Positions 13,761 to 62,611 of a DNA stretch of 64,000 nt are shown piece after piece. Made by a program: the position numbers and the translations under genes. The notes below the pieces were generated by a model. That model had not been told where the DNA came from, made no database searches, and saw only the letters and a program-made list of their open reading frames with translations. Each line of letters begins with the position of its first letter. Position 1 is the stretch's first letter. Source of the DNA: a virus; IMG/VR virus record IMGVR_UViG_3300030329_001630, positions 1 to 64,000 of that record, one strand, 5' to 3'.

Positions 13761-13810
13761 AATAATTCTCCTTGAGAATTGTGTAATTGTTTAATAATAG
13801 AATAAAATTA

Positions 13811-13849
13811 CAGCAATAGTCACGGTTGAATTATCCTTTCGGGTTCAAC
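13811..13849 (-). promoter_or_regulatory. Possible promoter and stem-loop before the capsid gene
   Basis: The 147-nt gap between scaffold and capsid genes holds no gene. On the minus strand GTGACTATTGC at about 13814-13824 resembles the CACTAT core of the other promoter-like sites in this window, with one change. Just upstream a 6-bp inverted repeat (GTTGAA/TTCAAC, 13825-13849) could form a stem-loop. Both are suggestive only. Confidence 0.3.
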
Positions 13850-13907
13850 GTTAGCTTGTCAATCCCACGATTAATATAAACATCTCTATTTAATAAAAAC
13901 CGCTTTC

Positions 13908-26985: not shown

Positions 26986-27000
26986 AATAGCATGGGTTTT
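26986..27000 (-). promoter_or_regulatory. AAAACCCA-N3-TATT motif, copy A
   Basis: This gap before the 67-residue gene carries AAAACCCATGCTATT on the minus strand. The same pattern, with only three variable bases, is found in two other gaps (35976-35990 and 42265-42279). A short hairpin (GGCAC/GTGCC, 26965-26979) follows. It may be a promoter or operator. Confidence 0.4.
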
Positions 27001-27658
27001 ATGGCATCAGTTCGAGATACGGATGTCCATTCACAACTACTCCACATGCGTGAATTGGTTTAACAAGATAGTGCTCAGAATAGAGCATAGCAAGATGATC
27101 ATTGTCCACCCCGCACCCAACAGACATACCAAAGATGCGGTGATTGTTAGCACCAGACATCCAATTAATAGCTGCTTTTGTATGATGATGCCCCATGACC
27201 ACTGACTGGTTACGTGTTCGAGCCGCATTAAATGCCGGATAAGCAGAAGCAGCACCAGTCCCATGATAATAATAAACACCATCGATTTCAACATTCTGTT
27301 TCCACTCCCAGTTCTTTGTTTTATATAGTTCTTTATATTCCTTCAGGTACATAGCAGGAATACCGGCATCGGCTGCAATCCTATGGACACGACAGTCATG
27401 ATTACCAATAGTGACGGTAGCGTTTGGGTACGCCTTGTACCAACGCTTAACTGTATCAAAGGCAAGTTCGTATTCCCTGATCGCGTCGGGCGATTCAGGG
27501 TTTGCTTTATGATACGAAATGACATGGTGATCGATAACGTCACCAATGAATACTGTTTGGTCAGTCCTATATTTCCTTCGTATACTTCTGACGAAATCAA
27601 AGTAGTCGTCTTTAACAGCAGGGGCGTGTAAGTCCCCGATTACTAATACTCTACTCAT
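26999..27658 (-). CDS. Metallophosphoesterase
   Basis: A 219-residue calcineurin-type phosphoesterase with GDLHAP (residues 8-13), GDVIDHH, GNHD and GHHH, the five metal and catalytic motifs. Substrate unknown; phage relatives act on nucleotides or phosphoproteins. Start ATG 27658 has GGAG 10 nt upstream and overlaps the sigma-like gene by 8 nt. A longer frame to 27706 is not supported. Confidence 0.85.
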   Translation of the reverse strand: MSRVLVIGDLHAPAVKDDYFDFVRSIRRKYRTDQTVFIGDVIDHHVISYHKANPESPDAIREYELAFDTVKRWYKAYPNATVTIGNHDCRVHRIAADAGIPAMYLKEYKELYKTKNWEWKQNVEIDGVYYYHGTGAASAYPAFNAARTRNQSVVMGHHHTKAAINWMSGANNHRIFGMSVGCGVDNDHLAMLYSEHYLVKPIHACGVVVNGHPYLELMP

Positions 27659-28229
27659 TGATTTTACTCCTAATGTCTCTGCACTTACGGGAAACCATAG
27701 ACTCACTTATGTCCATCATTACACCAATGGTTTTCATTGTGGTTCCCTGAGCAATTTGGTTGACAATAAACCGTTCGTGTTTTGTAATACTCGGTTTATT
27801 GACGATTTGTTCTCTGAAAGTTTCTTTTGAATCCAAAGGGTTATTGCATTCACTTGCACCGTTGCATTCATTAGAATGGGGGATATCACTTTCTGCGAAC
27901 TGTTGCATTTTGTGGATATAACGGCCTTCTTCCTTACCTTCCCAGTTTCTGTGCATACCTTCCTCAAATGACCTCATGCCATCTGAGATTCTTCCCCCAA
28001 GGTAAAGGAAACAGTACTTAGTAAACGGAACACCTTTGCTTTCGTCCCACGACTTTAGCAAATTTTGAATCTGAATCCATCCCTCACTGAGCAATGCTTC
28101 TTTAGACCATCGATTGAAGTAATTGCTTTTGAGCTTCTGACCGACAATAATCTGAATCAACTCAACAAGATCATTTTCGTTAGCGATGTCAATTGGGTTC
28201 TTTTCGTAATCTCTGAATTTATTCCGCAT
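27651..28229 (-). CDS. FliA-like sigma factor
   Basis: A 192-residue protein with the layout of a sigma-70-family (FliA/sigma-28-like) factor. Region 2 is seen at about residues 45-90: LLSEGWIQIQNLLKSWDESKG, then VPFTKYCFLYLGGRISDGMR, closely matching the family's D-L-x-x-x-G-x-x-G-L-x-x-A-x-x-x-F/Y-D-x-x-x-G-V-x-F-x-x-Y-A. Region 4 at the C-terminus (ITKHERFIVNQIAQG..TMKTIGVMMDISESMVSRKCRDIRSKI) has a helix-turn-helix with S-E-S-x-V-S. Region 3 appears short or absent. The start 28229 has GAGG 10 nt upstream. It lies downstream of the phage's own polymerase, so it may redirect host RNA polymerase; this is inference. Confidence 0.72.
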   Translation of the reverse strand: MRNKFRDYEKNPIDIANENDLVELIQIIVGQKLKSNYFNRWSKEALLSEGWIQIQNLLKSWDESKGVPFTKYCFLYLGGRISDGMRSFEEGMHRNWEGKEEGRYIHKMQQFAESDIPHSNECNGASECNNPLDSKETFREQIVNKPSITKHERFIVNQIAQGTTMKTIGVMMDISESMVSRKCRDIRSKINE

Positions 28230-28494
28230 TAAAGTAATCCTCTTCTGTAAAGTTATCGTCAGGACCATCTACTACAAATTCAATGTTTACAAGATCTTCT
28301 GGAAGATCGTCTTCTTTAGACAGGTGTTTATCACCAATAGTCTGTACGTTATCAAGAATAATGTTTACCCAAGAAATATGAGGTAACATAATCTGATACG
28401 TAGCGTTTTCTCCTTCTAGGATATTAAACTCGATTGTATCAAGAAGCTCCTCCATTGTGTGCTCCGAATTGATCGTTGTTGTGTGTTTGAACAT
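28219..28494 (-). CDS. Acidic hypothetical protein (91 aa)
   Basis: A 91-residue acidic protein; start MFKHTTTINSE at 28494 has AGGAGG 6 nt upstream. It has a Glu/Asp-rich C-terminus (VVDGPDDNFTEEDYFNAE) and a central ISWVNIILDNV strand. It overlaps the sigma-like gene start by 11 nt. No family recognised. Confidence 0.7.
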   Translation of the reverse strand: MFKHTTTINSEHTMEELLDTIEFNILEGENATYQIMLPHISWVNIILDNVQTIGDKHLSKEDDLPEDLVNIEFVVDGPDDNFTEEDYFNAE

Positions 28495-28738
28495 CAGAAT
28501 CCTCCTTGAGGTAATGAATTTCTTGTACCATTTCAATAGGGATGAGATGCACAGCACCTCCTGCTTGCCCATCATGTTGGATCGTATCCGTCAAAACAAT
28601 CCGGTCTTCTGTGAAATTAATGACGTAACCAATAGTGTTTACAATACAAATTTCAGCAGAAGCTGCTTCTTTAATATCTTCGGCATCTTCCCATCCGGGT
28701 CCGCCGGTTGACTGCGCGTCCTTCCATTTGACTCTCAT
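28439..28738 (-). CDS. Small hypothetical protein after RNA polymerase (99 aa)
   Basis: A 99-residue protein whose ATG 28738 (MRVKWKDAQ) lies just after the polymerase stop with GAAGG 9 nt upstream. The larger in-frame start at 28912 would overlap the polymerase and is less likely. It is beta-rich (VNTIGYVINFTEDRIVLTDT, and IPIEMVQEIHYL), resembling small proteins seen near early genes of other podoviruses. Function unknown. Confidence 0.65.
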   Translation of the reverse strand: MRVKWKDAQSTGGPGWEDAEDIKEAASAEICIVNTIGYVINFTEDRIVLTDTIQHDGQAGGAVHLIPIEMVQEIHYLKEDSDVQTHNNDQFGAHNGGAS

Positions 28739-28772
28739 GATTCTACCTTCGTTAAGGATAGATTTCAACCAC

Positions 28773-31337
28773 TCAGCAGAAGAGATATTCAGATTCGAGA
28801 ATTTCTTCTGGAACGAGGCCACCTTGTTCTGGAATGTCTGGGAGTTCGTGACCGGAAAAGTTTTCGAGATCTTGTTTAAATAATTCGAGTTGGCTTTCTT
28901 TGTGAATTTCATAAAATGTTTCCCTTGATATACGTGTTAGATACTTTAGGTAAATAATAGGTACTCCGAAGCTATCGTGGATCATGCAAAAGTTTCTGCA
29001 CCCCATTGCCAGCAAACGCAATACCACAAATACCATATGAGCAGCGTCAATTGAGTGGACCCAGTTAGGAGGGATAGCCGTAGCCATTTTCCTAACGTCC
29101 ATGTCCTCAGTAAACTGCCACATTTCTGCCGTAGATCTAATACGTACATCATTCTTTAGCAGTAAAGCAATATCAGTGATATACTCTACATGTTCAGTGT
29201 AATACTGCCTGACTTTAAATCCAGAAGGAGTTGTCCATTGAAGAGGCTTTTTCTTTCTGTCATCACTATTATAACAAACTTCAACACATGCTTTAATATA
29301 CTCTTTAGCTTCGTTAGGAAGAATTAAGGCTTCTTGGAGTGCTTCCCAAATTACAGACGTACATTCCATGATGGCCCCTTGCCAGCTTAGGCCACGCCCT
29401 TCGAGCAATGGTCTACACCAGTCAAGATGTCCCTCAGATCGGATGTACTGTCTTGCACTGTAGAATGTGACTCCGTAAGGATCACACATTACAGTCCTTT
29501 TAGGTAACCCTCTTGGCATCTTCTTGTCTTTTTCTGTGTGCTCCCAATGGGTTAAAAACATATCAAAGTATTGATTAGCATCACGTTCTGCTTCCATTTT
29601 TGCAGTAGCGTTATGAGCAATAAACTTATACATATCACCCGGTTTAGAGGTTTTACTAACATTAACAAGTTCAGCTAAGTTTTCAGCTTTAGTTGTACCT
29701 ACCCAATGTTGAATACCATTGCATGTCCCGTCAAGATTCTTAGGGACATACGAGTATCCTGTTTCTAAAGCAATAAAGAAATCAATAGTATCAGCCAGTC
29801 GCCTGAATGATATATTCTTTTTAGCTTTATCATCTTTCCAAAGATTTACAGTACCTTCAGGGTCTTCGTATACTTGACGAAGCATACTCATATTGTCATC
29901 GACCCATTGAGCACGTTCTTCAAAAGACGCTTTATCAAAGTCCCACCTGTTAGCTAAGTGAACCTTTAACCAGAAGTAGTCACATTCTTCTTTAACTTCA
30001 TTTGATTCTAACTTAACTCCTTCAGCGAATTGAATTATACCGCAGTCGAAGTCCCCACTTTGAGGAGATAGAAACGATGACTGCGTATAGCATCTCCCCC
30101 TAAAGTCAGAAGAATAAGCGTGCCAAAATATCAAGTCTTTAAGATCATCCGCAATAAGTAAACGCATTTCCATTTGCATTCTCTTTTGCTTAGTCTTTTC
30201 CCATAGACCCCATGCTTCAGCACGTTCGTTTTTCCATTTAGCTATTACTTCTTTTTCTTCTCCTTCAGGGAAAGGTCTACTGAATACAAACTCATCGTGG
30301 TCGTAAGGAGGCAGGTTACACACCTGTCGATTAGACTTGTACAGATTAGTCATTACCTCAAGAACTCTTTTGTTGATGCTCCATTCAGTACCTTGCAATG
30401 CATTAAGGGCATTGATTGACTGTTGGCTATGCTCACTATTGTTCTTGTAGTAATTGCCTGCTCTTGTGTTATGAACAGATGACTTCCTGTATTCTAAGTG
30501 TAAAGCACCACCCCAGTCCTCCGCTGTCTTGTTAGGATAGTCGTGAGGAATAGGTGGGCACACCATTGGATAATACAACCACTTATAATATTGGTAAAAA
30601 TTATGAAATGCCTCGAAGTTTTTCGTAAACTCTTCTCGCAGTGAGATAATAGTATGTCTTTTAATCTGTCCGTTTTTTACAATAGCGATAGGGTTTTCAA
30701 CAAAGGGCATAATACTTTCTTTGTTTCCTACCATTAAGGTATAGAACGATAAGGCAACCACATTTCTCTTTTGGTTATCCCATGTAGGTAACGTTTGACA
30801 CTTACGTGCAAACGCTTTCATTCTTTTCTTGTTCCAATTCTTAAAGTAATGCGACTGTCGGGCAAACTCATTGCTGTAGTTTTCTTTAGCCAGTCGTATG
30901 CCGATAGCCAGCCACAGTTCTCTTGATATAACACCTAGTATATTCTGTTTAGTTTGTGATCTTAAGTCTCCTAAGTTATAGTTATCGTACTTAATACCGT
31001 CCGATGCTTGGATCAGACGAGACGATAAGCAGCTATCAAGCAATGCCTTGACAACAATAGCAGCACATCGTTCAGCACCCAACAAGTGAGCAATAGTAAG
31101 CCAGTAAGGCTTCTTTTTTACTTTTTCATATTGTTCTTCTGTCCAATTAATGTAATCGCTAAGGTATTCTGTGTAATCAAACACGAATTCCTTCTCGCGT
31201 GGAGATGCACTAGGGGACATGTTAACATTGTTGAGGTACTTTTCAATGGATTGTTTAGCTGCTTTGTCTTCGTTGGCTAACTGAAGATTTGTTAGCCTTC
31301 TTCTTTCTTCTTTTGTGTACGTTTCCCATATTGTCAT
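28773..31337 (-). CDS. Single-subunit DNA-dependent RNA polymerase (T7-like)
   Basis: An 854-residue polymerase, like T7 gp1 (883 aa). Catalytic motifs: DGTCNGIQHW near 532 (metal Asp), PKRTVMCDPYG near 611 (Lys and Tyr), PNWVHSIDAAH near 756 and IHDSFG near 786 (second metal Asp). It transcribes the phage genes from its own promoters. ATG 31337 has AAGGAG 5 nt upstream; MIRSP at 31352 is less likely. The C-terminus ends EYLFC, where T7 has FAFA. It is unusually far from the first gene of the window because the accessory block lies upstream. Confidence 0.95.
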   Translation of the reverse strand: MTIWETYTKEERRRLTNLQLANEDKAAKQSIEKYLNNVNMSPSASPREKEFVFDYTEYLSDYINWTEEQYEKVKKKPYWLTIAHLLGAERCAAIVVKALLDSCLSSRLIQASDGIKYDNYNLGDLRSQTKQNILGVISRELWLAIGIRLAKENYSNEFARQSHYFKNWNKKRMKAFARKCQTLPTWDNQKRNVVALSFYTLMVGNKESIMPFVENPIAIVKNGQIKRHTIISLREEFTKNFEAFHNFYQYYKWLYYPMVCPPIPHDYPNKTAEDWGGALHLEYRKSSVHNTRAGNYYKNNSEHSQQSINALNALQGTEWSINKRVLEVMTNLYKSNRQVCNLPPYDHDEFVFSRPFPEGEEKEVIAKWKNERAEAWGLWEKTKQKRMQMEMRLLIADDLKDLIFWHAYSSDFRGRCYTQSSFLSPQSGDFDCGIIQFAEGVKLESNEVKEECDYFWLKVHLANRWDFDKASFEERAQWVDDNMSMLRQVYEDPEGTVNLWKDDKAKKNISFRRLADTIDFFIALETGYSYVPKNLDGTCNGIQHWVGTTKAENLAELVNVSKTSKPGDMYKFIAHNATAKMEAERDANQYFDMFLTHWEHTEKDKKMPRGLPKRTVMCDPYGVTFYSARQYIRSEGHLDWCRPLLEGRGLSWQGAIMECTSVIWEALQEALILPNEAKEYIKACVEVCYNSDDRKKKPLQWTTPSGFKVRQYYTEHVEYITDIALLLKNDVRIRSTAEMWQFTEDMDVRKMATAIPPNWVHSIDAAHMVFVVLRLLAMGCRNFCMIHDSFGVPIIYLKYLTRISRETFYEIHKESQLELFKQDLENFSGHELPDIPEQGGLVPEEILESEYLFC

Positions 31338-31449: not shown

Positions 31450-31466
31450 AAGGTACTCCTTTCTAA

Positions 31467-31551
31467 TAGCTCCGGGGGGACTCGAACCCCCATGAGGTTT
31501 ACCCTCGACGGATTTTAAGTCCGTTGCGTCTGCCAATTCCGCCACAGAGCC
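31467..31551 (-). tRNA. tRNA-Leu (UAA anticodon)
   Basis: An 85-nt cloverleaf with a long variable arm. The anticodon loop is CTTAAAA (UAA). D arm GCGGAATTGGCAGACGC and T arm GGGGG-TTCGAGT-CCCCC are seen. Acceptor GGCTCTG pairs CGGAGCT; the first pair is G-U. No CCA is encoded. Confidence 0.93.
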
Positions 31552-31555
31552 ATCA

Positions 31556-31629
31556 CACTTCGGGAAGGACTCGAACCTTCGACCTGCGGATTAGAAGTCC
31601 GCTGCTCTATCCGACTGAGCTACCGAAGC
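31556..31629 (-). tRNA. tRNA-Arg (UCU anticodon)
   Basis: A 74-nt cloverleaf with anticodon loop CTTCTAA (UCU, reads AGA/AGG). T arm GAAGG-TTCGAGT-CCTTC; acceptor GCTTCGG with CCGAAGT, first pair G-U; no CCA. It overlaps the last codons of the citrate-synthase-like gene by 10 nt. AGA is common in the late genes. Confidence 0.93.
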
Positions 31630-32150
31630 CCTTTCTTCTTAGAGATTTTCCACAATTCAGTCCAAGCAGGAAGCCTAGCATTTACTAAATGGAACGCTGC
31701 TTCTTCAATAGGTACGCCAGATTCAATACAGCAAGCTACAGTATAATAAGAAGCATTAGGGTACAACATTAAGCCTTCATTATGTAAAAATTTAGTAACT
31801 CTCTTTTCTGTTTCTTTTGTTGCACTACCTTCTAAGATACAATCAACAGCGAAGAATACAGAATCTGGTTCTCCTTTAACGAAAGAAGATCCCCAGCCCG
31901 GAATCTTGTAATGATTTAACAGATGGGTTTTGATTTCATTCTCGTAGTTTAATTCAGAGCACCTCGAAATAAATTTATGTGTTTGCATAAGAGGGGCATG
32001 AATTTCTCCAAGTGTAAGAAGCCCTCCTGCAATGGAGGTAAAGTAATCTTTTCCGACTTCCGCAAGCGCTGCTACCGAAGCCGCCGAAGCGTTATTCCTT
32101 AATGCAATTTCATTTTGAAATGAATACATTTCTTCTAATAAGGTGTGCAT
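31620..32150 (-). CDS. Citrate-synthase-like protein, active-site residues lost
   Basis: A 176-residue protein that matches three blocks of citrate synthase. Block 1, IAGGLLTLGEIHAPL, aligns with the AAG-x-x-x-L-x-G-P-x-HGG segment and keeps the His. Block 2, IPGWGSSFVKGEPD, aligns with x-GFGHRVYK-x-x-DPR but has Ser in place of the catalytic His. Block 3, LYPNASYYTVACCIESGVPIEE and then FHLVNARLPAWTELW, aligns with the LYPNVDFYSG and ARTVGWIAHW segments but has Ser for the catalytic Asp. The N-terminal half of normal citrate synthase is missing. Start ATG 32150 has AAAGGAG 7 nt upstream. It sits between tRNA-Arg and tRNA-Lys. Probably not a catalyst; role unknown. Confidence 0.7.
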   Translation of the reverse strand: MHTLLEEMYSFQNEIALRNNASAASVAALAEVGKDYFTSIAGGLLTLGEIHAPLMQTHKFISRCSELNYENEIKTHLLNHYKIPGWGSSFVKGEPDSVFFAVDCILEGSATKETEKRVTKFLHNEGLMLYPNASYYTVACCIESGVPIEEAAFHLVNARLPAWTELWKISKKKGLR

Positions 32151-32169
32151 AATTTCTCCTTTCTGAGAA

Positions 32170-32241
32170 TACCCTCGGCAGGACTCGAACCTGCGACCGA
32201 TCGGTTAAAAGCCGAATGCTCTACCACTGAGCTACGAGGGC
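32170..32241 (-). tRNA. tRNA-Lys (UUU anticodon)
   Basis: A 72-nt cloverleaf with anticodon loop CTTTTAA (UUU). D arm GCTCAGTGGTAGAGC and T arm GCAGG-TTCGAGT-CCTGC. Acceptor GCCCTCG with CGAGGGT, first pair G-U; no CCA. The outermost pair of the anticodon stem is U-U. Confidence 0.93.
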
Positions 32242-32245
32242 AGGT

Positions 32246-35975: not shown

Positions 35976-35990
35976 AATAACGTGGGTTTT
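35976..35990 (-). promoter_or_regulatory. AAAACCCA-N3-TATT motif, copy B
   Basis: AAAACCCACGTTATT on the minus strand, in the gap before the 126-residue gene. Matches copies at 26986-27000 and 42265-42279 at 12 of 15 positions. Confidence 0.4.
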
Positions 35991-37998: not shown

Positions 37999-38012
37999 TG
38001 GTCAAGTTCCTT

Positions 38013-38387
38013 TCAACAATCGTGTCTATTTTCGTCGGGGACAATCGCAAGCTTCCCGCCAATATTAGTGTCTTGGATGAGGTTCACATGGATCATCCAA
38101 AGACGGAAAATGTTCGGCTTCCAGTTGATGAGATTGGGAACACTTCCCTGCGCGTGCTCACCCGGCGAGTCACCCCACCGAGCAGTGTACTCCCAGTTCT
38201 CGGGGTTACGCCACCCATAATATTCGTCGAACTGCCCTACCGTGTAAAAGTAAAGATCGTGCAAACGATCAGGGAACTCAGGGTCGAAGCTCACTCGACC
38301 AACAAAATGCTCTTCATACTCCGGCCACTCAGGACCGCCGTCAGGGTGTCCAAGAGGTTTGAACTGAGGGGATTTATCAAAACTCAT
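38013..38387 (-). CDS. Hypothetical protein rich in aromatics (124 aa)
   Basis: A 124-residue protein with many Trp/Tyr/Pro (GQFDEYYGWRNPENWEYTARW). AAAGGAG lies 9 nt before ATG 38387. No family recognised. Confidence 0.65.
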   Translation of the reverse strand: MSFDKSPQFKPLGHPDGGPEWPEYEEHFVGRVSFDPEFPDRLHDLYFYTVGQFDEYYGWRNPENWEYTARWGDSPGEHAQGSVPNLINWKPNIFRLWMIHVNLIQDTNIGGKLAIVPDENRHDC

Positions 38388-38449
38388 CGATCAAGTCTCC
38401 TTTCTAAAGTGAAAGGGCAGTTTATACTGATGCCCAGCAGTAGAATCAA

Positions 38450-38869
38450 TTAGTCACGGTTCTTCGCCTGCGAGGCAAAGTGCCTGAATTCTCCCTTTTC
38501 CAGAATTCGCCTTTCGGCGTAAGCCGCACCGAGATCGAAAATGGTCGAGTAGTGGGCATCGTCAGCCTCCTCAATTTCAGCACGAATGTCAGCCTGACGA
38601 ACCCGAAGTGGCTGACCAAACTCTGCTGCGCGAGTCAGGTCACGGAGAACCTTTGCGGGCATCTGGACAGTGACCGTATCGTAGTCGGGAACATCCTTAG
38701 TGATTTCACGCCAGTGGTTGCAGTTCTCGATGGCGAGCTTGAGGTATTCACGCTCGAAGATCAGGGCGTGAAAGCGTTCACGCGCTTCCCTCTGCTTTTC
38801 GTGGAGGCAATCGATCCGATCTTCAAAGGGATCGGCATTGGGATCAGAGAGATCAATCTTATCAGACAT
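38450..38869 (-). CDS. Helical hypothetical protein (139 aa)
   Basis: A 139-residue, largely helical protein (CLHEKQREARERFHALIFER; QMPAKVLRDLTRAAEFG). AAAGGA lies 8 nt before ATG 38869. The gene is GC-rich compared with the late genes. Function unknown. Confidence 0.65.
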   Translation of the reverse strand: MSDKIDLSDPNADPFEDRIDCLHEKQREARERFHALIFEREYLKLAIENCNHWREITKDVPDYDTVTVQMPAKVLRDLTRAAEFGQPLRVRQADIRAEIEEADDAHYSTIFDLGAAYAERRILEKGEFRHFASQAKNRD

Positions 38870-38899
38870 GTTGTTTCCTTTCGAGAAACAGGGTTGGGT

Positions 38900-39169
38900 T
38901 TAGTTGGAGAGACGAGTCTCAATTTCGTGCATTTGCATCTTTTGAAGAAGCAAAGCAAACTCCTCGCCAGAAAGGTCATCTCGAAGGTCGAACAGATCTA
39001 CGCCGCTGACGAAGTCCGGTTCCAAGGGGAAGTTGCGATTCTTTACCGAACCGTGAAAAATGACCTCAGCACCGTTGACCTGCTGGATCTTGGCAGAGTA
39101 CCAGTCACCAACGGGAGCTTTGAGCATACGACGAACGACGTTGAGGGCAGGAGTGTCACACTTTTGCAT
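38900..39169 (-). CDS. Hypothetical protein (89 aa)
   Basis: An 89-residue protein starting MQKCDTPALNVVRRMLK; AAAGG lies 9 nt before ATG 39169. A longer frame to 39277 runs into the GC-rich leader and has no ribosome site. Function unknown. Confidence 0.65.
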   Translation of the reverse strand: MQKCDTPALNVVRRMLKAPVGDWYSAKIQQVNGAEVIFHGSVKNRNFPLEPDFVSGVDLFDLRDDLSGEEFALLLQKMQMHEIETRLSN

Positions 39170-39469
39170 TGTTGTTGCCTTTCGTGAAAGAAATAAGCAG
39201 GGGCCACCATACGAACAGGTGTACCCAGAAATGCCGTGAGAGGGCCGGAGAGGCCGCCTGACGGACGAGAAGAACAAACAAGGGGGAACTGCCCGAGTCC
39301 GGGCGGGGGCCGCAGTCGGGATTCTACGGCTTCTGAGGGGTAGTTGTGCTTAAGGGGGAGGTGCCGAGTCCGTGGCTGCCCACGCGGAGGGCCTGTGATA
39401 GTGGAAGGAGGCGGACGGGGCTTGTACCACGGGGGTTGTAGCACGGGGAGGGGTGATGAGGTGATCATT
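39170..39469 (-). promoter_or_regulatory. GC-rich intergenic leader with promoter-like motif
   Basis: A 300-nt GC-rich stretch without a credible gene. On the minus strand it holds TTCCACTATCACAG (core at 39396-39404), which recurs at 40233 and 40877, and beside it one copy of the GCTGCC-Y-ACGCGGA repeat (39374-39388, given as + strand). The following transcript would have a leader of about 220 nt. Confidence 0.45.
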
Positions 39470-40120
39470 TTAGGCCGTCACGTCAACAATGTTGTTGAGA
39501 GGGGTGTGATTGTGCTCATTTGCGGCTCGGTAGTCGCTCTCGAAGCGATTCAGAGCGAATCCCTTACCCCGAGCGGCGCAAAGAGTGGTGTGAGTACCGA
39601 ACGGCTGCATCCCGTTGTCGGGCGTGTACGTGACACGCAGGGATCCGATCTCGAACCAAGCCGTGACCTTCAGGACACGCGCCTTCTCGCTCTTGGCGTA
39701 GAAGCAGGAACGAGCATGACACGGCAGAGCCTCACCATCAGCGAGGGTCCAGTTCTGGATCGATGTCGTGCCGTCAGCGAAGAAGATCTTCACCTTCGAC
39801 TTCAGACGCGAGTGGCTCTCCGCGTTGTTGACCGTCACGACCGTACCATCCGAGTGGGTGATAGTGGAGATGTCGCCATTGTAGTTGATCACGCTGTCAC
39901 GGGTCTCCGCGTTGGGTCGGAAGAAAGCCTCCAGCATGTCAGCCTCGTACTTGAGGTCGGACATGGTGTGGAACGAGATCAGATCATCGCCCCTCTTGTG
40001 GTAGGCGAAGCACTCCTTCTCCTCCGAGCGGAACTGCTTGCCCCTCTCGTACTTGATGAAGTCTCCGTTGGGAGTCGAGACGCTGAACGAAATGGCTGAC
40101 GATTTGAGACCAATATGCAT
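39470..40120 (-). CDS. Hypothetical protein (216 aa)
   Basis: A 216-residue beta-rich protein (MHIGLKSSAISFSVSTPNG start; ISTITHSDGTVVTVNNAES; VKIFFADGTTSIQNWTLADG). No signal peptide or membrane span. AAAGGAG lies 9 nt before ATG 40120. GC-rich. Function unknown. Confidence 0.7.
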   Translation of the reverse strand: MHIGLKSSAISFSVSTPNGDFIKYERGKQFRSEEKECFAYHKRGDDLISFHTMSDLKYEADMLEAFFRPNAETRDSVINYNGDISTITHSDGTVVTVNNAESHSRLKSKVKIFFADGTTSIQNWTLADGEALPCHARSCFYAKSEKARVLKVTAWFEIGSLRVTYTPDNGMQPFGTHTTLCAARGKGFALNRFESDYRAANEHNHTPLNNIVDVTA

Positions 40121-40344
40121 TGGTGTGCTCCTTTCAAGAGCATGATAGAAAAAGGCTGCCTACGCGGATTCGTTGGCAACCGATGAAGGTGAAACGCTGC
40201 CTACGCGGAGGCTACCTCCGAGGACAGACTGATGATAGTGGATCAGACTCCTCCGAAGAGGGCTGATCGATCCTTGGAACCGGGTGAAGGCCGCATCCTT
40301 GCTTGAGATCATCCGTGATCTCCCTACGCTAGAGGCTCATCTCC
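40121..40344 (-). promoter_or_regulatory. Leader with promoter-like motif, repeats and palindrome
   Basis: No confident gene in 224 nt. It holds ATCCACTATCATC (core 40233-40241), two copies of GCTGCCTACGCGGA (40155-40168 and 40196-40209 on the + strand), and a perfect 7-bp palindrome GAGATCA-N4-TGATCTC (40305-40322). A 50-codon frame (40160-40312) starts inside the palindrome but looks unlike a protein. Confidence 0.45.
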
Positions 40345-40416
40345 TTACAGCATTGCGATGAATGCTAATAGTGTGAAAAAAGGAATCCATTCAAACGGGT
40401 TGATGCGCTCTTCCAT
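40345..40416 (-). CDS. 23-aa membrane peptide
   Basis: A 23-residue peptide, a charged start (MEERINPFEW) followed by IPFFTLLAFIAML. It has a near-perfect AAGGAGG 7 nt before ATG 40416, directly after a terminator. The strong ribosome site is the main evidence. Confidence 0.55.
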   Translation of the reverse strand: MEERINPFEWIPFFTLLAFIAML

Positions 40417-40429
40417 GAGGCACCTCCTT

Positions 40430-40458
40430 AAAAAAAGCAATGCCCTCGTTGGAGGGCA
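40430..40458 (-). terminator. Rho-independent terminator
   Basis: A 7-bp stem TGCCCTC / GAGGGCA with a 4-nt loop, followed by TTGC and seven T on the minus strand. It follows the 40470-40673 gene; the next ribosome site begins right after the T run. Confidence 0.85.
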
Positions 40459-40469
40459 CGCTTCATGAC

Positions 40470-40673
40470 TCACCAGACAGGAGGGATTTCCTCCTCCTCA
40501 GTCAAGCAAGTAGCAAACGTTTCATCCAACTGCTTGTTGAGAGTGGCACGGAAGTTCTCACAGTCTTCTACAGTGAGCTTCTTTTTTCTTGCCTTCTGCT
40601 TGAGAAGCTCCGTAAGAAGAGAAAACTTCCGAGAGAACAACTCAATAGCGTTGATGGTTTTCATGTCAATCAT
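40470..40673 (-). CDS. Helical hypothetical protein (67 aa)
   Basis: A 67-residue helical protein (MIDMKTINAIELFSRKFSLL start; LKQKARKKKLTVEDCENF). Start and ribosome site are inside the end of the upstream gene in the 18-nt repeat. Followed by a terminator. Confidence 0.65.
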   Translation of the reverse strand: MIDMKTINAIELFSRKFSLLTELLKQKARKKKLTVEDCENFRATLNKQLDETFATCLTEEEEIPPVW

Positions 40674-40767
40674 CTGAGTTTCCTTCATTTATCGAACTTT
40701 CAAGAACGTAGTAAAGAACAGCCATACTAAACGCAGTGAAACCAAAGCAGGTAAGATATCCAATCAT
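40666..40767 (-). CDS. 33-aa membrane peptide
   Basis: A 33-residue peptide with one membrane span (LTCFGFTAFSMAVLYYVL) and an acidic tail ending EGNSDD. The ATG overlaps the previous stop (ATGA), so it is probably coupled. Downstream start lies in its last codons. Confidence 0.6.
   Translation of the reverse strand: MIGYLTCFGFTAFSMAVLYYVLESSINEGNSDD
40670..40687 (-). repeat. 18-nt repeat at a gene junction, copy 2
   Basis: Identical to 33977-33994. Codes for the EGNSD end of the 33-aa peptide and supplies the next start. Confidence 0.8.
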
Positions 40768-40853
40768 CGGTCGTTGTATCCAATGAACAGAGGTGCGAAA
40801 GCCATAACGGCACAAACAACAATCAACAGCGTCAACATGATGCAAGCATACAT
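40764..40853 (-). CDS. 29-aa membrane peptide
   Basis: A 29-residue peptide with a membrane span (CIMLTLLIVVCAVMAFAPLF). AAGGAG lies 7 nt before ATG 40853. It sits 24 nt after a promoter-like core and is coupled to the 33-aa peptide: a possible small membrane pair. Confidence 0.6.
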   Translation of the reverse strand: MYACIMLTLLIVVCAVMAFAPLFIGYNDR

Positions 40854-40876
40854 GATGTGCTCCTTCCAGAGCGAGG

Positions 40877-40885
40877 TGATAGTGG
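40877..40885 (-). promoter_or_regulatory. CCACTATCA promoter-like motif
   Basis: TTTCCACTATCACC on the minus strand, in the 85-nt gap before the 29-aa peptide. The CACTAT core is that of T7-type promoters. Two other gaps (39396, 40233) have it with CCACTATCA exact. Confidence 0.45.
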
Positions 40886-40938
40886 AAAGACAAAACAAGC
40901 CGTCATCCCCGGTAGGGGATGGGCTTGTGCGTGTGCGA

Positions 40939-41364
40939 TTAACGGGTAGGTACTGCGCGATCACCCGCGTACGAATCGGTGCTGAAACGACCGTGGCTGG
41001 TGACTGAGGCGAGATCGGAGAACGCCTTCTTAAGCTCCAAGTTGATCTTATCGATGTTAGCACCGGCTTCTTCGATTCTCTCGGTAAAGACCTGAAACAT
41101 CTTGTCGTACTGATAGTCTTCCTTCGTCCACTTCATGTATTCATTGCCTTCCCTCTCGGCAGTGTCAGTGTCGCCCGCATCAAGAGCCGCGTACATCGCG
41201 CGGCCGTGAGTCTTAAGGCCCTCTGAGATCGCGGGCTTGGAGGTCGTGTGAGTCTTACGCTGTTCCACGAACACATCAAAAGCGGCCTCGCACTCAGCCT
41301 TGCGGGACTGAAGAGAAACGATGAGTTCGAGAACAGCACGGAGAGTGAGGGTAACATTAGACAT
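40939..41364 (-). CDS. Helical hypothetical protein (141 aa)
   Basis: A 141-residue largely helical protein (MSNVTLTLRAVLELIVSLQS; ERIEEAGANIDKINLELKKAF). AAAGGA lies 9 nt before ATG 41364. GC-rich. Function unknown. Confidence 0.65.
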   Translation of the reverse strand: MSNVTLTLRAVLELIVSLQSRKAECEAAFDVFVEQRKTHTTSKPAISEGLKTHGRAMYAALDAGDTDTAEREGNEYMKWTKEDYQYDKMFQVFTERIEEAGANIDKINLELKKAFSDLASVTSHGRFSTDSYAGDRAVPTR

Positions 41365-41447: not shown

Positions 41448-41942
41448 CTAATCGATTTTCCACCCACCTAACACAAGGGAAAGGTCGGTTCCACCGACTG
41501 TATTATCACCATCAAGATCCCAAACAGAGTTTTCCTTACCCCAGTCATTCAAGAGATCACTTAAGTCATCAGCAGTAAACTCTGTTTTAATAATATAAAA
41601 TATAAAATACCGGGGGCACTGCGTAGGGTTATCCTGCAAGTCAGTGCGGTTCCGCTCCCAGCTAACGAAGAGATGATCGTCAAAGATCTGTACTTCATCA
41701 AACGAAAGCATGGGTTGGCCCGGATCTGAAGAGATCCAAGGACCGGCCAAGCGGCCCGGTACAAGATCAAAAGTGTAGTTTATACAAGCAGTTGTATTCT
41801 CGTCCCAATGCAATCGGGCCTCACCCTTGTACACAGTACGTGGACCTTCTTCGTAAACTTCATAATATATTTCTGAATTATCATCCCAAGAATACTCAGA
41901 AAAGAACAACGGGAGCGTAGCCAGAACAAGGTACTTAATCAC
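41448..41942 (-). CDS. Secreted protein with dockerin-like C-terminus
   Basis: A 164-residue protein. GTG 41942 has AGGAG 6 nt upstream; the longer frame to 41966 uses TTG without a site. The N-terminus (IKYLVLATLPLFFSEYS) resembles a short signal sequence. The C-terminal 35 residues, LSDLLNDWGKENSVWDLDGD, then TVGGTDLSLVLGGW, follow the calcium-binding dockerin/EF-hand pattern D-x-D-G-D-x-x-V-x-x-x-D-L-x-x-x-L-x-x-W that is very abundant in secreted planctomycete proteins. It may be exported and attach to the host surface or lie in the lysis set with the holin-like protein. Confidence 0.65.
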   Translation of the reverse strand: MIKYLVLATLPLFFSEYSWDDNSEIYYEVYEEGPRTVYKGEARLHWDENTTACINYTFDLVPGRLAGPWISSDPGQPMLSFDEVQIFDDHLFVSWERNRTDLQDNPTQCPRYFIFYIIKTEFTADDLSDLLNDWGKENSVWDLDGDNTVGGTDLSLVLGGWKID

Positions 41943-42264: not shown

Positions 42265-42279
42265 AATACACTGGGTTTT
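42265..42279 (-). promoter_or_regulatory. AAAACCCA-N3-TATT motif, copy C
   Basis: AAAACCCAGTGTATT on the minus strand, just after the giant gene. Third copy of the motif seen at 26986-27000 and 35976-35990. Confidence 0.4.
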
Positions 42280-42283
42280 TAAT

Positions 42284-45200
42284 TTACTCCGTTTGTTTCT
42301 GGATTATATTAAGAACATCTAAAGTCTGCCTTAAGGCTTCTCTAGATGCTGTCCCTTGCTTAATGACCCCTATAGCATCTACGATGTCTTGAGGCTGTTC
42401 CGTCTTTATGTCGGGCTGTACTGCCTGTGTCTTAGGAATAAGAGGACTAATACCCGTACCAGTATTTTTGGTGGGATCAGAGACAGGAACAGGGGTTCTA
42501 CCTGAGGGATCCATGATACCAATGGGGTGCTCCCATGCTGATAATGCATCGATCTGTCTAAACCCTGCCTGAAGAAGCCATCCCCAAGGGATAGGCATCC
42601 TATGCATCGAGTTGGCAGCACCTTCAGTAATGTTACCTTCAGACATGTCCTTGATTCCTCCCATGATTCGGGGGATAGTCTGAAGAAGACCATTGATCTG
42701 CATGATACCAGCCGAGTTAAACGGAGTAGTATTCACAGCCCTATCTCCTCGTAACATCTGTAAGAAGAACGCAGCAGCCATCTGGTTGGCTCCCAAGAAG
42801 GGAACTGCCATAAGAGCTTCCTGAATTTCTGTCCAAGGATCTTTCTTGATTTCAGCAATCATGTCATCAATATTTTTATGGGTCTGCAATTGAACTAACT
42901 TATAGTATAACCATCCGGTTAAGGTATGAGCCAGAACCGTATTTGCCAGAACAAGAGGGCCAGCTAAACCTGCTCTTCTGATTCCGTGGAAAGTAGAAGA
43001 GGAATAGGTAATAAGCCTAGACAAGAGGGTAGCTAAAATACCACCAGATTTAGTACCCACTGGGGCATTAGAGAGTACGGGCTGTTTAGCGTACTTGACA
43101 GCAGCATTAAATGCTAGTTCTCTTACGGCGTTTACTGTTTGGAACTGCTTTGCCCTAATAACAGCCGGGTTAATTTCCTTCCCGTCTGCGTCAAGAACTT
43201 TTTCGGGCAAACCGAACGTAATGTTCTTTCTGAGTTCATCGAAGGGAATCCCAGTCTTTCGGATAACGTCATAGTTATCAACAAAAAGCTTTTCAAAGAA
43301 TGGGAACAGTTCTTCGCTGAATAAACCAACCTTAATCATCTCCATAACATCCATAGACGTAAGAGCATCTACTTTCATCTTTTTAAGCTCTTGTCTGACA
43401 ATACGGGGAGAAAGATTTACAAAGTCGCCCCCAGAAGCCTCGATAAGCCTGCTTCTGATTTCAGACATACTAGCTTTAATTCTTCTGGTAGGAACTATTC
43501 CTGTTGGGGACTCAGCTTGAATAAAGGTATCTGCGATTCTGTTTACGAACTGCCTTACGCCAATACTTCTAGCTGATGCTGTTTGTTTATCCATACCGAA
43601 AGCTAAAACCCTATACAATTCCTTAATCTTTACGTTGGCTTTAACAGATTCATCAGGTGAAATATCCATCCCAGACCTTTGGATCAAAGTAGCAGCATGG
43701 TGTAAAGCATTCATCGTAAGGAAACCCAAGCCTTCTAAGGTTTGATCCACATCTTTCCTGCTCTTAACTAAAGTAAACGCATCGACCATATCACTCTGGA
43801 ATCCAGTAAGATTATGTTTAAGTGCTGACACCATACTGTGAGGAGTTTCTTCAATAGCAGTAGCAATAGCCAAGCGTGGTGCAATACTAAGAGCAGTACC
43901 AAACTCAGACGCTAAGTTAATGACATGTAAGAACGTATTATCCGTGGGTTTATCGTCTGTTTTAAAAGTACCGATAGAGTAATCATACATTCTTTCCATG
44001 TGCTTTAAGGCACTTGAGAATTTATGGCGTTCGTCTTGTGTGAGAGTACGCATAACAGAATTAGGATCTACTTCAAAGTTCTTATCGTGTACTAAGAACT
44101 TAATAATTTCTTTTCCGGTAGTTCCAGTTTGAGCGATATCCTGATACATCTTAATAACATCTCTCATACCGAGACCTTTAACCCCAAAGGCGGGGCCGAA
44201 CGTTGACTTATCATAAGCCTGCGCTGCAACGCCTCTTCTGATTGATGAAATAAACTGAAGAGGGTCTGTTTCAATAAACATACCAAGTTGGCGGTTTCTA
44301 AGGAAATCTCTAGGCGTTAAGAAGTTATCTCCTATAAAGGAATAACTAGAGGAACCAACTTTAACCATATATTTCCATGCCAGATACTCTGCTGGGGTAA
44401 ACTTAGATAAGTTAGCTCCGGCCTTTAACTGAGAGTCTCCATATCTTGTGTTTACTTGCTGAATAAGATCAGTTAATACATTATTCTGATTAACTTCTTG
44501 ATCTCCAAAAAGTTCGCCTCTACTTAAAAGATTTCTATATTTAGTTTGAATCTCTTCGGGAAGATCCTTAAATAAGACATTTCCTCTATCTACTTCAGAT
44601 AAGAATTTACCTAATTTGCCATTACCTTTGGCTTGGATAAGCCCTGCTAATACGTTATCTAAGTCATTGATATCAATACCCTCTCCTCTTCGGGACGGTC
44701 TAATAAGGTTATCAGCTAAAGCTATCTGTAAAAGATCGGAATCTACGTATGAATTAGGAGTAGGATCAAGTTTTTCACGAATGATATCAACTAATGTGTT
44801 TCTGAGTTGCTCTCTTAATATACCCGAATCAGGGGAACTTTCTAAATCTGCGTCATCAAAAACGGCTTTTCTAAACTTAATGGGATAAGCACCTTTTTCT
44901 AAAAGTTCGTCGCCCATTCGAGGAGAAACCATTCCGCTATCTACCATCTTGCGTACCACGGTTGACCAGAGACCTGTCTTAGGATCAGCCCACATTTCCA
45001 CAATAGGTACAACAAGATTGGCGTACTCATCAAAGTCTTTACCATTGTTTTGTTCGATTAGCTGTTTACCGATAGGTACTTCCTCATATTCTAACGCCCT
45101 TACTCTTTCTTTAAGCCGTGCTGTGATCCCCTCTTTATTGGTATAGTTTAAAGTTAAATCTTGGAAAACAGACTCAAAGAACTCCCAAGGTAAGAACGTA

Positions 45201-48200
45201 CCACTACGCTGGCCGCCGGTTGGGCCGACCGTAATGTTTGCTCTTTTCATGTTAATAAGGGCGTGCTGCAACGAATCAAAATCTCCGGCTAAAGCCGTAC
45301 CTAACGCATGGATAGTAGGCATGTTTGTAGTAAACGCACCACTTGTAAAATAACTTGTTGCGTCAGCAGCAGAAATTAAAGCGGTGGTTAAAACCGTTTG
45401 CGGCACTGATGCATCCGTCTGATAAGCAAAGTTTCTAGCACCGAACGGAGAAGCCAGCGTATCTGTTATTCTAGCAACTTCGTTAGGACTAATAAGTCCC
45501 AAAGCCATGCGCGAAATAAACGTAGAAGCCGGAGTTTCAATTCTATTACCTAACCCTGCTGGAATCAGCTTTTCTTCTGCTGCTCGGAGGATAACTGCTC
45601 TTTCCATATCTGCATCATTTTCGGTCAGTCTCTTAATTGTTTCTAAATCTACCATACCGGTTTCAGCATCTCTAGCCTCTTCAGCAATTTCCCGAGCTTT
45701 CGTATCGTATTCAGCAGCATTTCTTCTACTTGCCTGAGCAGCCGATGGGAATTCCATTCCTCTAGTAAGGTCATCCATAGTTAGAGGATCAACACCATCT
45801 GGAAGTTCTAAGGGATCGTGATCGGTGCCATACATTATGCGATTTTCTTCTTCCCTCTTCCTAATAATAGGAGTTCGGGTCGGTTGCATTCTACCAGAAA
45901 GAGTCTCAAGAGGAGCCGAGAATAATGCATCCGCATCTCCTAAGTTTAAAATCTCGGTTATTTCTCTTGCAGCACTAATAAACGTATAGCTATCTTCAAT
46001 TCCGTCTGCTAAGTCCTTACTGGCTTTGATGGTATCAAAAGCAGAAGGAATCTTTTTAATAGCTGAAATAGCAAACATCGCCCCAAACAACTCACTTGTA
46101 GCAACGTTTAAATCGTCCTTAGTAAGAAGCTCTTCTCCTAATTGTTTAAGTCTAGCGATGTATTTTGCATCTGTTGTGACTTCTTCACCGTGAATCTTTT
46201 GTTCGGCTGTTTTGACACTTTCCAGCTCTACGCGCCTAACTTCATTAATAAAAGCTCTTTTCTGCTCCGTATCAAGACGAGTACCTACGTGGTGCCCGAT
46301 TTCTTCAAGAATTACGGCAGCAGGCCCAAGCTCAACTTCCTCTCCGTAGAGACTACGTAATGCCGAATGAACGGACAGGACGTTGGTATTAGGATCGTAA
46401 TGACCTGCTGATTTTAAGTGAGGCGTTACGTTTAACTCGAAACCGCCTGAATCTCGGTGAGAAACAAACAATTTGAGTAGGCTTTCTTGAGATGTAGTAA
46501 AGAAGGCTAATTTAAGAATTATAGCGTCGTTGTTGTTTAGCGTTCCGTTAGCAACAAGCCCGTCCCAGTAGTTTCCTACAGTTTTATGTACTGCGCTTTG
46601 TTTTTCAAAAGCACTTGCTCGATGGTGAGCCGTGTTTACTTTTACTTCATTACCGTCTTTCATTGGAGAAGTAGGAGCAACTTGTTCTCTAATCCTTATT
46701 TCATCTACTGCTTGCATTGCACCTTCTGTTCTAGGTGAGTAGTAAATATTATTAACTTCTCTTGAAACTTCCCGTGCTACTCGCCATGACTCAGCAAAAA
46801 CAGCTATTCTAGAATTGTGGTTATAAACGTCAGTAATTTTAGCTCCTTCAAAAGCTGTACCAGCGAAGTCATTAAGATTCTGTGTTATTTGACCATCAGA
46901 ATTCCATTTTCTGTTTATAGCGAATATCATTTTGCTTAACTCGGCCCACTCTTCCTCAATCTCAGCCTTAAGCGGCATTCCGTTGGATCTATGGTTTGGG
47001 TTAAACAAGTAATCTTCTTGTTGTCTCAGATTAATGTAAGTTTCTTTCGGTGCTTTGTTGCCGTCCGTAAGGAAATAAGCTTTAATAGCAAGCCCCCACT
47101 TATAGGAACCGTCCTTGCTTAACGCTGTTTTATAGGATTTAATGTTGGTAATAATACCCTCGTCCCAACTCAACCCAGCTAAAAGCTCATCACCCAGAAG
47201 CTCAGTAGCCTGCTTCTTGTACTTCCACGTATCTTCTTTACTGTTAAGCTCTAAGAACCGAGCGGGTCGAGCCTTTCCGTTTACAATTGTCTTGTACCTG
47301 TTATCTGATACAAACTTTCTAGTTAAATTTCGTTTTTTCATGTTTGCAGCTAACTGCTCAAAGCCAATAGAAAGAGCGGCAGCATTTTCTCTGGCTTTGT
47401 TAATACTTAAACCAGCGTATTTAGTAAACGGATCGTATCCTCCCATGTTAGAAGAACGTTCAGCGTTCATAGGAAGGTCTCTCTTAAGTAAGGAAGCCAA
47501 CAGCATTCTGTCAACCACTCTACTATTTTGGGTAAAGTTCAATGCTTTAATCTTATCTTGCATAGTAAGTCTAACAATACCCTGACCTGTAACCTTGTGA
47601 GGATAGATTAAATTACCAAAAGCATCAACGAAAAATCTCTGATCTCTATCATACTTTATTTGATTTATCTTAGCATTCATCGCCTCTTCAAAAGTTTTAC
47701 CGGGATAATTCTTACTGATAAACTCATCAATGTCTCCCAACTGCTCTGATAAGTTAGCCATAACAGCTTCTTTGATTGCGGGTTTAGACATGTAAGCGAT
47801 TGCAGAGTGGTTATCTCCAAACTTAGTTACAACGTTTTCTTCGCCTTCCTTGAAGTAACGAAGAATGTCCTCTACGTCTGCCTTATTGAAAGCTTCAAGG
47901 ATGTGCTCATAATTCTCGTTCCTTTTCCTAAACTCTATTCCCTCGTCTAAGCCTTCTTGTCCTCTTACTTTAAGATCCCACCATTCTACGAATAAACTGA
48001 TGTGATTTGCTGTAATCTCATCCTCATCAATCACACCATCAAGCATCCTCTTAACAGCCTGATGCCACATTCCTACTTGGGCATAATTAGTAAAGAAAAG
48101 ACCAGACGAGTCTTTAGTTTGTACGCTGGCTGGGGCGTGATAGAGAGTAGAGGCTTCTTTTACTGTCACAGGGTTTAACGGAGAATCAAGAATAATTGTA

Positions 48201-62119: not shown

Positions 62120-62611
62120 TTATTTCTCCATAAATTTGATTATCTTATTTATATTATTAGAAAGATCCTCAGTATACACCCTAAGTATGGGACAGTTAGC
62201 TTCCTCTAATACTCTAGACAGACACCACCTAGACCAATCAATAATGTCAGTAACTGGATTAAAAGGATTATAAAAATTTACTAATTTCTGTTCCTTTTCT
62301 TCTACCCTAATGACACTCTTATCTTGTTGTTGTCTATCTTGTCTTTCCAAGACAACCATACGGTCTATGTTATATACTGGGGTTTTTAGCAACGAGCTAG
62401 GCCAAAGTTTTATAATCTTATTTTTCCATCTATCTGTATTAATATATTTATTTACTTCAATAGGATGAGGCTCCCAATAACCATCGGGGTTTTCGTCCCT
62501 AGCTGTAAATTCCCAAAACTTTCTACCTATTACAGGTAACCCTGAATCTCGTAAAGATTTCATTACAAAAGAAGAACCGACACGCGGTCCTATTCCCGTT
62601 ACAATTCTCAT
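62120..62611 (-). CDS. Sulfotransferase-like P-loop protein
   Basis: A 163-residue protein. It starts MRIVTGIGPRVGSSFVMKSL, like the phosphosulfate-binding loop (G-x-P-R-S-G-T-S) of sulfotransferases, then ENPDGYWE and RMVVLERQDR, which occupy places of family motifs. It is shorter than normal sulfotransferases. GAGG lies before ATG 62611, which overlaps the terminase stop (ATGA). Substrate unknown. Confidence 0.55.
   Translation of the reverse strand: MRIVTGIGPRVGSSFVMKSLRDSGLPVIGRKFWEFTARDENPDGYWEPHPIEVNKYINTDRWKNKIIKLWPSSLLKTPVYNIDRMVVLERQDRQQQDKSVIRVEEKEQKLVNFYNPFNPVTDIIDWSRWCLSRVLEEANCPILRVYTEDLSNNINKIIKFMEK

Follow-up and report, generated by a model that had tools for sequence, protein, structure and literature searches.

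A two-domain sigma-70-family factor encoded beside the T7-type RNA polymerase in a lineage of phages

Phage sigma factors and T7-type RNA polymerases (RNAPs) are each well known already. As a rule, phages are portrayed as supplying one or the other, a polymerase of their own or a sigma factor that redirects the host's. A survey of jumbo phages regards these two strategies as converse (PMC7824862). In the phages phiEco32 and 7-11, the sigma factor is thought to redirect the host core polymerase for the middle and late genes, and the strategy of 7-11 combines the sigma factor with an anti-sigma factor (PMC4331800). No phage that combines a T7-type RNAP with a sigma factor is reported in the open-access literature searched, public genomes not having been exhaustively screened. 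Here, we describe a locus at which genes for both are found close together, in a stretch of 64 kb (hereafter the window) of the 71,591-bp IMG/VR virus record IMGVR_UViG_3300030329_001630. Positions are window coordinates unless another record is named. The two genes are:

27651..28229, minus strand: sigma factor of 192 residues, with a GAGG ribosome-binding site; region 2 at about 14-95, disordered linker at 97-136, region 4 at about 137-192
28773..31337, minus strand: T7-type single-subunit RNA polymerase of 854 residues; PF00940 match at 6e-64, catalytic residues present

The sigma gene lies three genes downstream of the RNAP gene, as the preliminary description of this DNA had it, and the identity of the polymerase is borne out by a PF00940 score of 216.9 bits (cut-off 22) and by the catalytic D/K/Y/D, which align to T7 D537, K631, Y639 and D812. 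We consider it rather probable that the sigma factor reprogrammes the host core polymerase alongside the phage's own T7-type RNAP.

Taken alone, the window protein gives modest profile matches (FliA_WhiG 1.4e-6, sigma70-ECF 6e-5, the phrog_351 sigma family 7e-5), and those in Pfam are weak (Sigma70_r4 0.025, Sigma70_r2 0.17). Matches are stronger in the family of eight that it forms with seven proteins from contigs found via the RNAP: all eight members match sigma70-ECF (TIGR02937; best 5.6e-12), FliA_WhiG (TIGR02479; best 1.9e-9) and phrog_351 (best 2e-11), and Sigma70_r4 reaches 1.8e-6 among the relatives. TIGR02937, a model of the superfamily and not of ECF factors only, scores 22.7 bits for the window protein and 45.1 bits for the relative in G002, the latter above the cut-off of 42.9. 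The profile matches to PDB entries have WhiG on top and include FliA, along with helix-turn-helix (HTH) domains of the NarL type that cover region 4 only. A homologue search with the window protein gave only chance matches among phage records and none among viral contigs; with the relative from L006, marginal matches (E 0.03-0.06) to the sigma factors of Brevibacillus phage Emery and Bacillus phage G were obtained.

In the AlphaFold2 model, sigma2 (about 14-95) and sigma4 (about 137-192) are predicted with confidence, at a predicted local distance difference test score of about 85-93 over most of both, and are joined by a low-confidence, disordered linker of about 40 residues (97-136); sigma3 is absent, and the model shows the sigma2 plus sigma4 arrangement of the ECF factors. 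Each of the 50 rows shown by Foldseek is a sigma factor or an RNAP complex that contains one, the best rows for the whole two-domain model being at E above 0.001. By domain, VIA superposes sigma2 (14-89) on residues 375-447 of sigma70 with a root-mean-square deviation (rmsd) of 2.3 A over 72 residues and sigma4 (134-192) with an rmsd of 1.9 A over 57 residues, at Z near 8. The product of 27651-28229 is a two-domain sigma-70-family factor, and the region-2 and region-4 patterns initially noticed in the 192-residue protein are confirmed by the family-wide matches to hidden Markov models (HMMs) and by the predicted fold, in which the helices of both regions are present. The label of a sigma-28-type, FliA-like factor is correct for region 2 only; it fails for the whole protein because sigma3 is absent and the score of 28.3 bits is far below the TIGR02479 cut-off of 189.6.

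The preliminary description had offered two alternatives, a reprogramming of the host polymerase as well or an inactive sigma factor that blocks host transcription, and an active sigma is favoured over a decoy because the promoter-recognition regions are the most conserved ones. Between the two subclades of the family, identity is 0.44, 0.46 and 0.42 in regions 2.3, 2.4 and 4.2, and 0.25, 0.30 and 0.15 in regions 2.1, 2.2 and 4.1; the better conservation of the promoter-reading over the core-binding regions has a permutation p of 0.0007 for eight sequences in two subclades, with columns treated as independent. In the family, residues F69 and Y72 of region 2.3 do not vary, nor do large parts of 2.4 and 4.2. 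In sigma-70-family proteins, region 2.2 normally ranks with the best-conserved parts. Since regions 2.3, 2.4 and 4.2 are the best conserved here instead, the alignment suggests that DNA reading is the preserved function of this sigma. The gene is also, judging from the comparison of L002 with L007 (nonsynonymous divergence, dN, 0.10; synonymous divergence, dS, 0.61; dN/dS about 0.17), under purifying selection.

The alternative that the protein is a blocker, which would occupy the sigma site on the host core without directing initiation and stand in for T7 Gp2, is unlikely but deserves some weight. With a polymerase of its own and promoter-like sites across its genome, the phage may do without the host enzyme late, and the scans reported below found no sigma target. 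However, a blocker should keep its core-binding regions and let the DNA-reading ones drift, and the reverse is seen, down to the invariance of F69, Y72 and much of 2.4 and 4.2.

The distribution of the gene bears on whether it has a set role in infection. The RNAP search gave seven contigs, all of which carry the sigma gene in the same slot, and it is found there in every clade member covering the region (the window, L002-L008, L019 and L029), at RNAP identities down to about 69 percent. The wider family was reached by a phosphoesterase scan, which gave at least 33 sister loci (some near-duplicates) with RNAP, small open reading frame(s) (ORFs) and phosphoesterase, and no sigma gene between them. 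Matches to sigma70-ECF are absent from 11 of the 12 longer sister records; the twelfth, G011, has a weak one inside an ORF of 3544 residues, and the sigma-like signals within the giant ORFs of G007 and G011 were set aside as not convincing. In the RNAP tree, the sigma-bearing clade forms one group (100/100) adjoining a sigma-less group (94/94), whose polymerases (e.g. G003, G007) are 33-36 percent identical to that of the window. A more distant lineage (RNAP 20-23 percent identical) carries a different, ECF-like sigma gene about 1-2 kb upstream of the RNAP:

L066, 3303-3794: ECF-like sigma gene
L079, 262-702: ECF-like sigma gene
L083, 1249-1713: ECF-like sigma gene

The difference in sigma type and in place suggests that the clade sigma and the ECF-like sigma were acquired separately; a comparison of the two profiles gave a probability of 16 and E of 0.0016, which is weak, and the tree has long branches.

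The window allele has diverged further than those of L002 and L007: its protein is 55-57 percent identical and the neighbouring genes are 84-96 percent identical; against L002, its synonymous sites are saturated, with dS of 0.57 and 0.93 in the flanking genes. An exchange for a diverged allele seems to fit these values better than fast amino-acid change alone. This apparently swapped-in allele is what could be said for a recently acquired, dispensable cargo gene without a set role in infection, a reading to which we assign little probability in view of the clade-wide retention of the gene in one slot and the purifying selection on it.

The preliminary description had also proposed, as candidate targets of the sigma, three gaps with AAAACCCA-N3-TATT. 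Exactly three copies do exist in the window, and each of three genomes contains the looser form AAACCCA-N3-TATW three times, on the coding strand only and at syntenic sites, above a shuffled expectation of 0.04-0.08 (0.04 per strand in the window). The sites, each a candidate promoter of the phage RNAP, are:

26986..27000, minus strand: P3, AAAACCCATGCTATT, followed by a hairpin
35976..35990, minus strand: P2, AAAACCCACGTTATT, upstream of the RNAP-sigma unit
42265..42279, minus strand: P1, AAAACCCAGTGTATT
62370..62384, minus strand: second-tier variant CCCA-N3-TATA, a weaker candidate, position kept in three genomes

All of the second-tier sites (20359, 15793, 62384 and 152) lie on the coding strand, and some of them are conserved in position. 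Aligned to the T3 and T7 promoters, the motif has AACCC at -13..-9, as in T3, TATW at -4..-1 and G or A at +1 (our own numbering); as a recurrent, one-strand site of about 20 bp before genes, AT-rich at -4..-1, it has the features of a T3/T7-class promoter. The window RNAP has Asp, as in T3, at the position of T7 N748, a residue that controls the -11/-10 choice in T7 and T3, and the sigma-less sister RNAPs have V, I, L or T there and a different specificity loop. The AAAACCCA-N3-TATW motif was not found in the sigma-less sister phages, several of which have three or four coding-strand copies of RGTTGGGGCTACWG at matching places, namely directly after the phosphoesterase, about 4-5 kb upstream of the RNAP and near the reductase; in G007, one copy is at 50925 (RNAP at 56044) and another about 10 kb upstream. 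RGTTGGGGCTACWG was not seen in G003, G004 and other members of the sister group, so that only the subgroup carrying it enters the comparison. The coupling of another motif in corresponding positions with a different specificity loop indicates that the motif tracks the polymerase, and AAAACCCA-N3-TATW is thus more likely a promoter of the phage polymerase than a target of the sigma.

Recognition of these sites by the sigma is accordingly very improbable: motif and sigma family are both confined to the clade among the records searched, but the spacing fits T3/T7-class promoters, the residue at the N748 position is T3-like here and not in the sigma-less sisters, several of these have RGTTGGGGCTACWG at the matching places, and the 15-bp core is without the separated -35 and -10 boxes of a sigma promoter. 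Least credible is a LuxR/GerE-type HTH regulator with an unrelated N-terminal domain, since, although Pfam GerE outscores Sigma70_r4 for the window protein alone, it does so with 20.6 bits, under its cut-off of 23.5, while a sigma factor is indicated by the better scores of the relatives (Sigma70_r4 1.8e-6, sigma70-ECF 5.6e-12), by the alignment of region 2 to FliA/WhiG and by the structural matches of both domains.

Several observations weigh against a reprogramming of the host polymerase by this sigma. On its own, the window protein reaches none of the curated HMM cut-offs, conservation is weak in the regions that face the core, the permutation test has the narrow basis given above, and a search of genome contigs identified no host. 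Scans for FliA-, sigma70- and ECF-like promoters in three focal and five sister genomes found no conserved site, the counts being mostly alike on both strands. With none of these scans pointing to a sigma promoter on the phage, the sigma may instead target host genes or recognise a motif of an unfamiliar type.

As copies of the motif are absent between the two genes, sigma and RNAP probably share one transcription unit, in which case the sigma should be made at about the time of the RNAP. In the model that we prefer, in which host and phage polymerases are both used, the phage RNAP would transcribe from about three strong candidate promoters (AAAACCCA-N3-TATW), and the sigma, made from the same unit as the RNAP, would replace the host sigma on the host core polymerase and steer this enzyme to a small number of promoters, of the phage or of the host; this capture would also draw the host polymerase off host genes. 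That a T7-class lineage runs two transcription systems at once, and that the pairing arose at least two times within the wider family, with different sigma types on either side of the RNAP, is a tentative proposal, to which we give slightly less than even chances.

The remaining genes of the locus are:

28439..28738, minus strand: small ORF, 99 residues from an internal ATG, after the RNAP; kept across the clade
28219..28494, minus strand: 91-residue ORF, overlapping the sigma start by 11 nt
26999..27658, minus strand: metallophosphoesterase (PF00149, 8e-10), overlapping the sigma stop by 8 nt; syntenic anchor

The 91-residue gene was considered as a cognate anti-sigma and set aside: a possible relative after the RNAP in the sigma-less sisters (hhalign E 2e-4, probability only 49, a weak match) means that it is not obviously the partner of the sigma. 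Three tRNA genes (Leu-TAA, Arg-TCT, Lys-TTT) lie at 31466-32242, just upstream of the RNAP, and an ORF of 176 residues at 31620-32150 has a weak match to a citrate synthase C-terminal domain (E 0.0013, under the cut-off). Hairpins occur just downstream of P3 (26950-26990) and P1 (42210-42268), and the stem of the former changes on both sides between subclades (GGCAC/GTGCC vs CTACGG/CCGTAG).

The capsid gene is preceded by a non-coding leader (13761-13907) that shows strong conservation in three genomes and has a stem GTTRAA/TTYAAC with a compensatory change; the leader has no match in Rfam at the gathering level. It was rejected as a sigma promoter, the -35/-10 spacing being lost in G001, the one stem having a compensatory change and the sister phages having a structured-looking leader there too. 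In three genomes, the terminase genes are likewise preceded by a conserved non-coding block with a strong hairpin (L010 1894-1984; record 64894-64984).

A protein of 4735 residues, about 30 percent identical to its counterparts and perhaps an internal virion protein or a polyvalent one, is encoded by the ORF at 42284-56491. The region 38000-41000 is richer in GC (up to 0.54) and shares few orthologues with the two closest genomes. At 41448-41942, and likewise at L083 2161-2790, a C-terminus that appears dockerin-like by eye (DLDGDNTVGGTDLSLVLGGW; no match in Pfam) might hint at a planctomycete-like host.

A clade with both genes in the same neighbourhood, together with its sigma-less sisters, makes it testable why a phage with a polymerase needs that of its host, and the pairs of promoter and specificity loop are candidate new orthogonal transcription pairs. 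The window phage is of the T7 type, and almost all of its genes are on the minus strand. It shares with the T7/T3 phages the T7-type RNAP, a Gp2.5-like single-stranded DNA-binding protein, primase-helicase, DNA polymerase, head-tail connector, tail protein and a T3-like promoter core; RusA, an exonuclease, capsid and terminase are also encoded. Unlike T7/T3, it is about 71.6 kb long, carries ribonucleotide reductase, ThyX, tRNAs and the 4735-residue ORF, and has only about three strong promoter-like sites as well as a sigma factor. The sigma-less phages of its family (G003, G007) have the same order of RNAP, small ORFs, phosphoesterase and primase-helicase, but differ in their RNAP (33-36 percent identical, with another specificity loop), in a partly different motif and in that no sigma was found. 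The sigma itself resembles FliA/WhiG (sigma-28) along regions 2.2-2.4 (e.g. F69, Y72, D83, R86) and in region 4.2, where SES[R/M] of the window family recalls ESR of FliA, and differs in being without sigma3 and of the two-domain size of an ECF factor. With the ECF (group 4) factors it shares sigma2, linker and sigma4 in about 190 residues and the match of all members to TIGR02937, its region 2 being more sigma-28-like. Like phiEco32 and 7-11, the window phage encodes its own sigma factor; unlike them, it has a complete T7-type RNAP three genes upstream.

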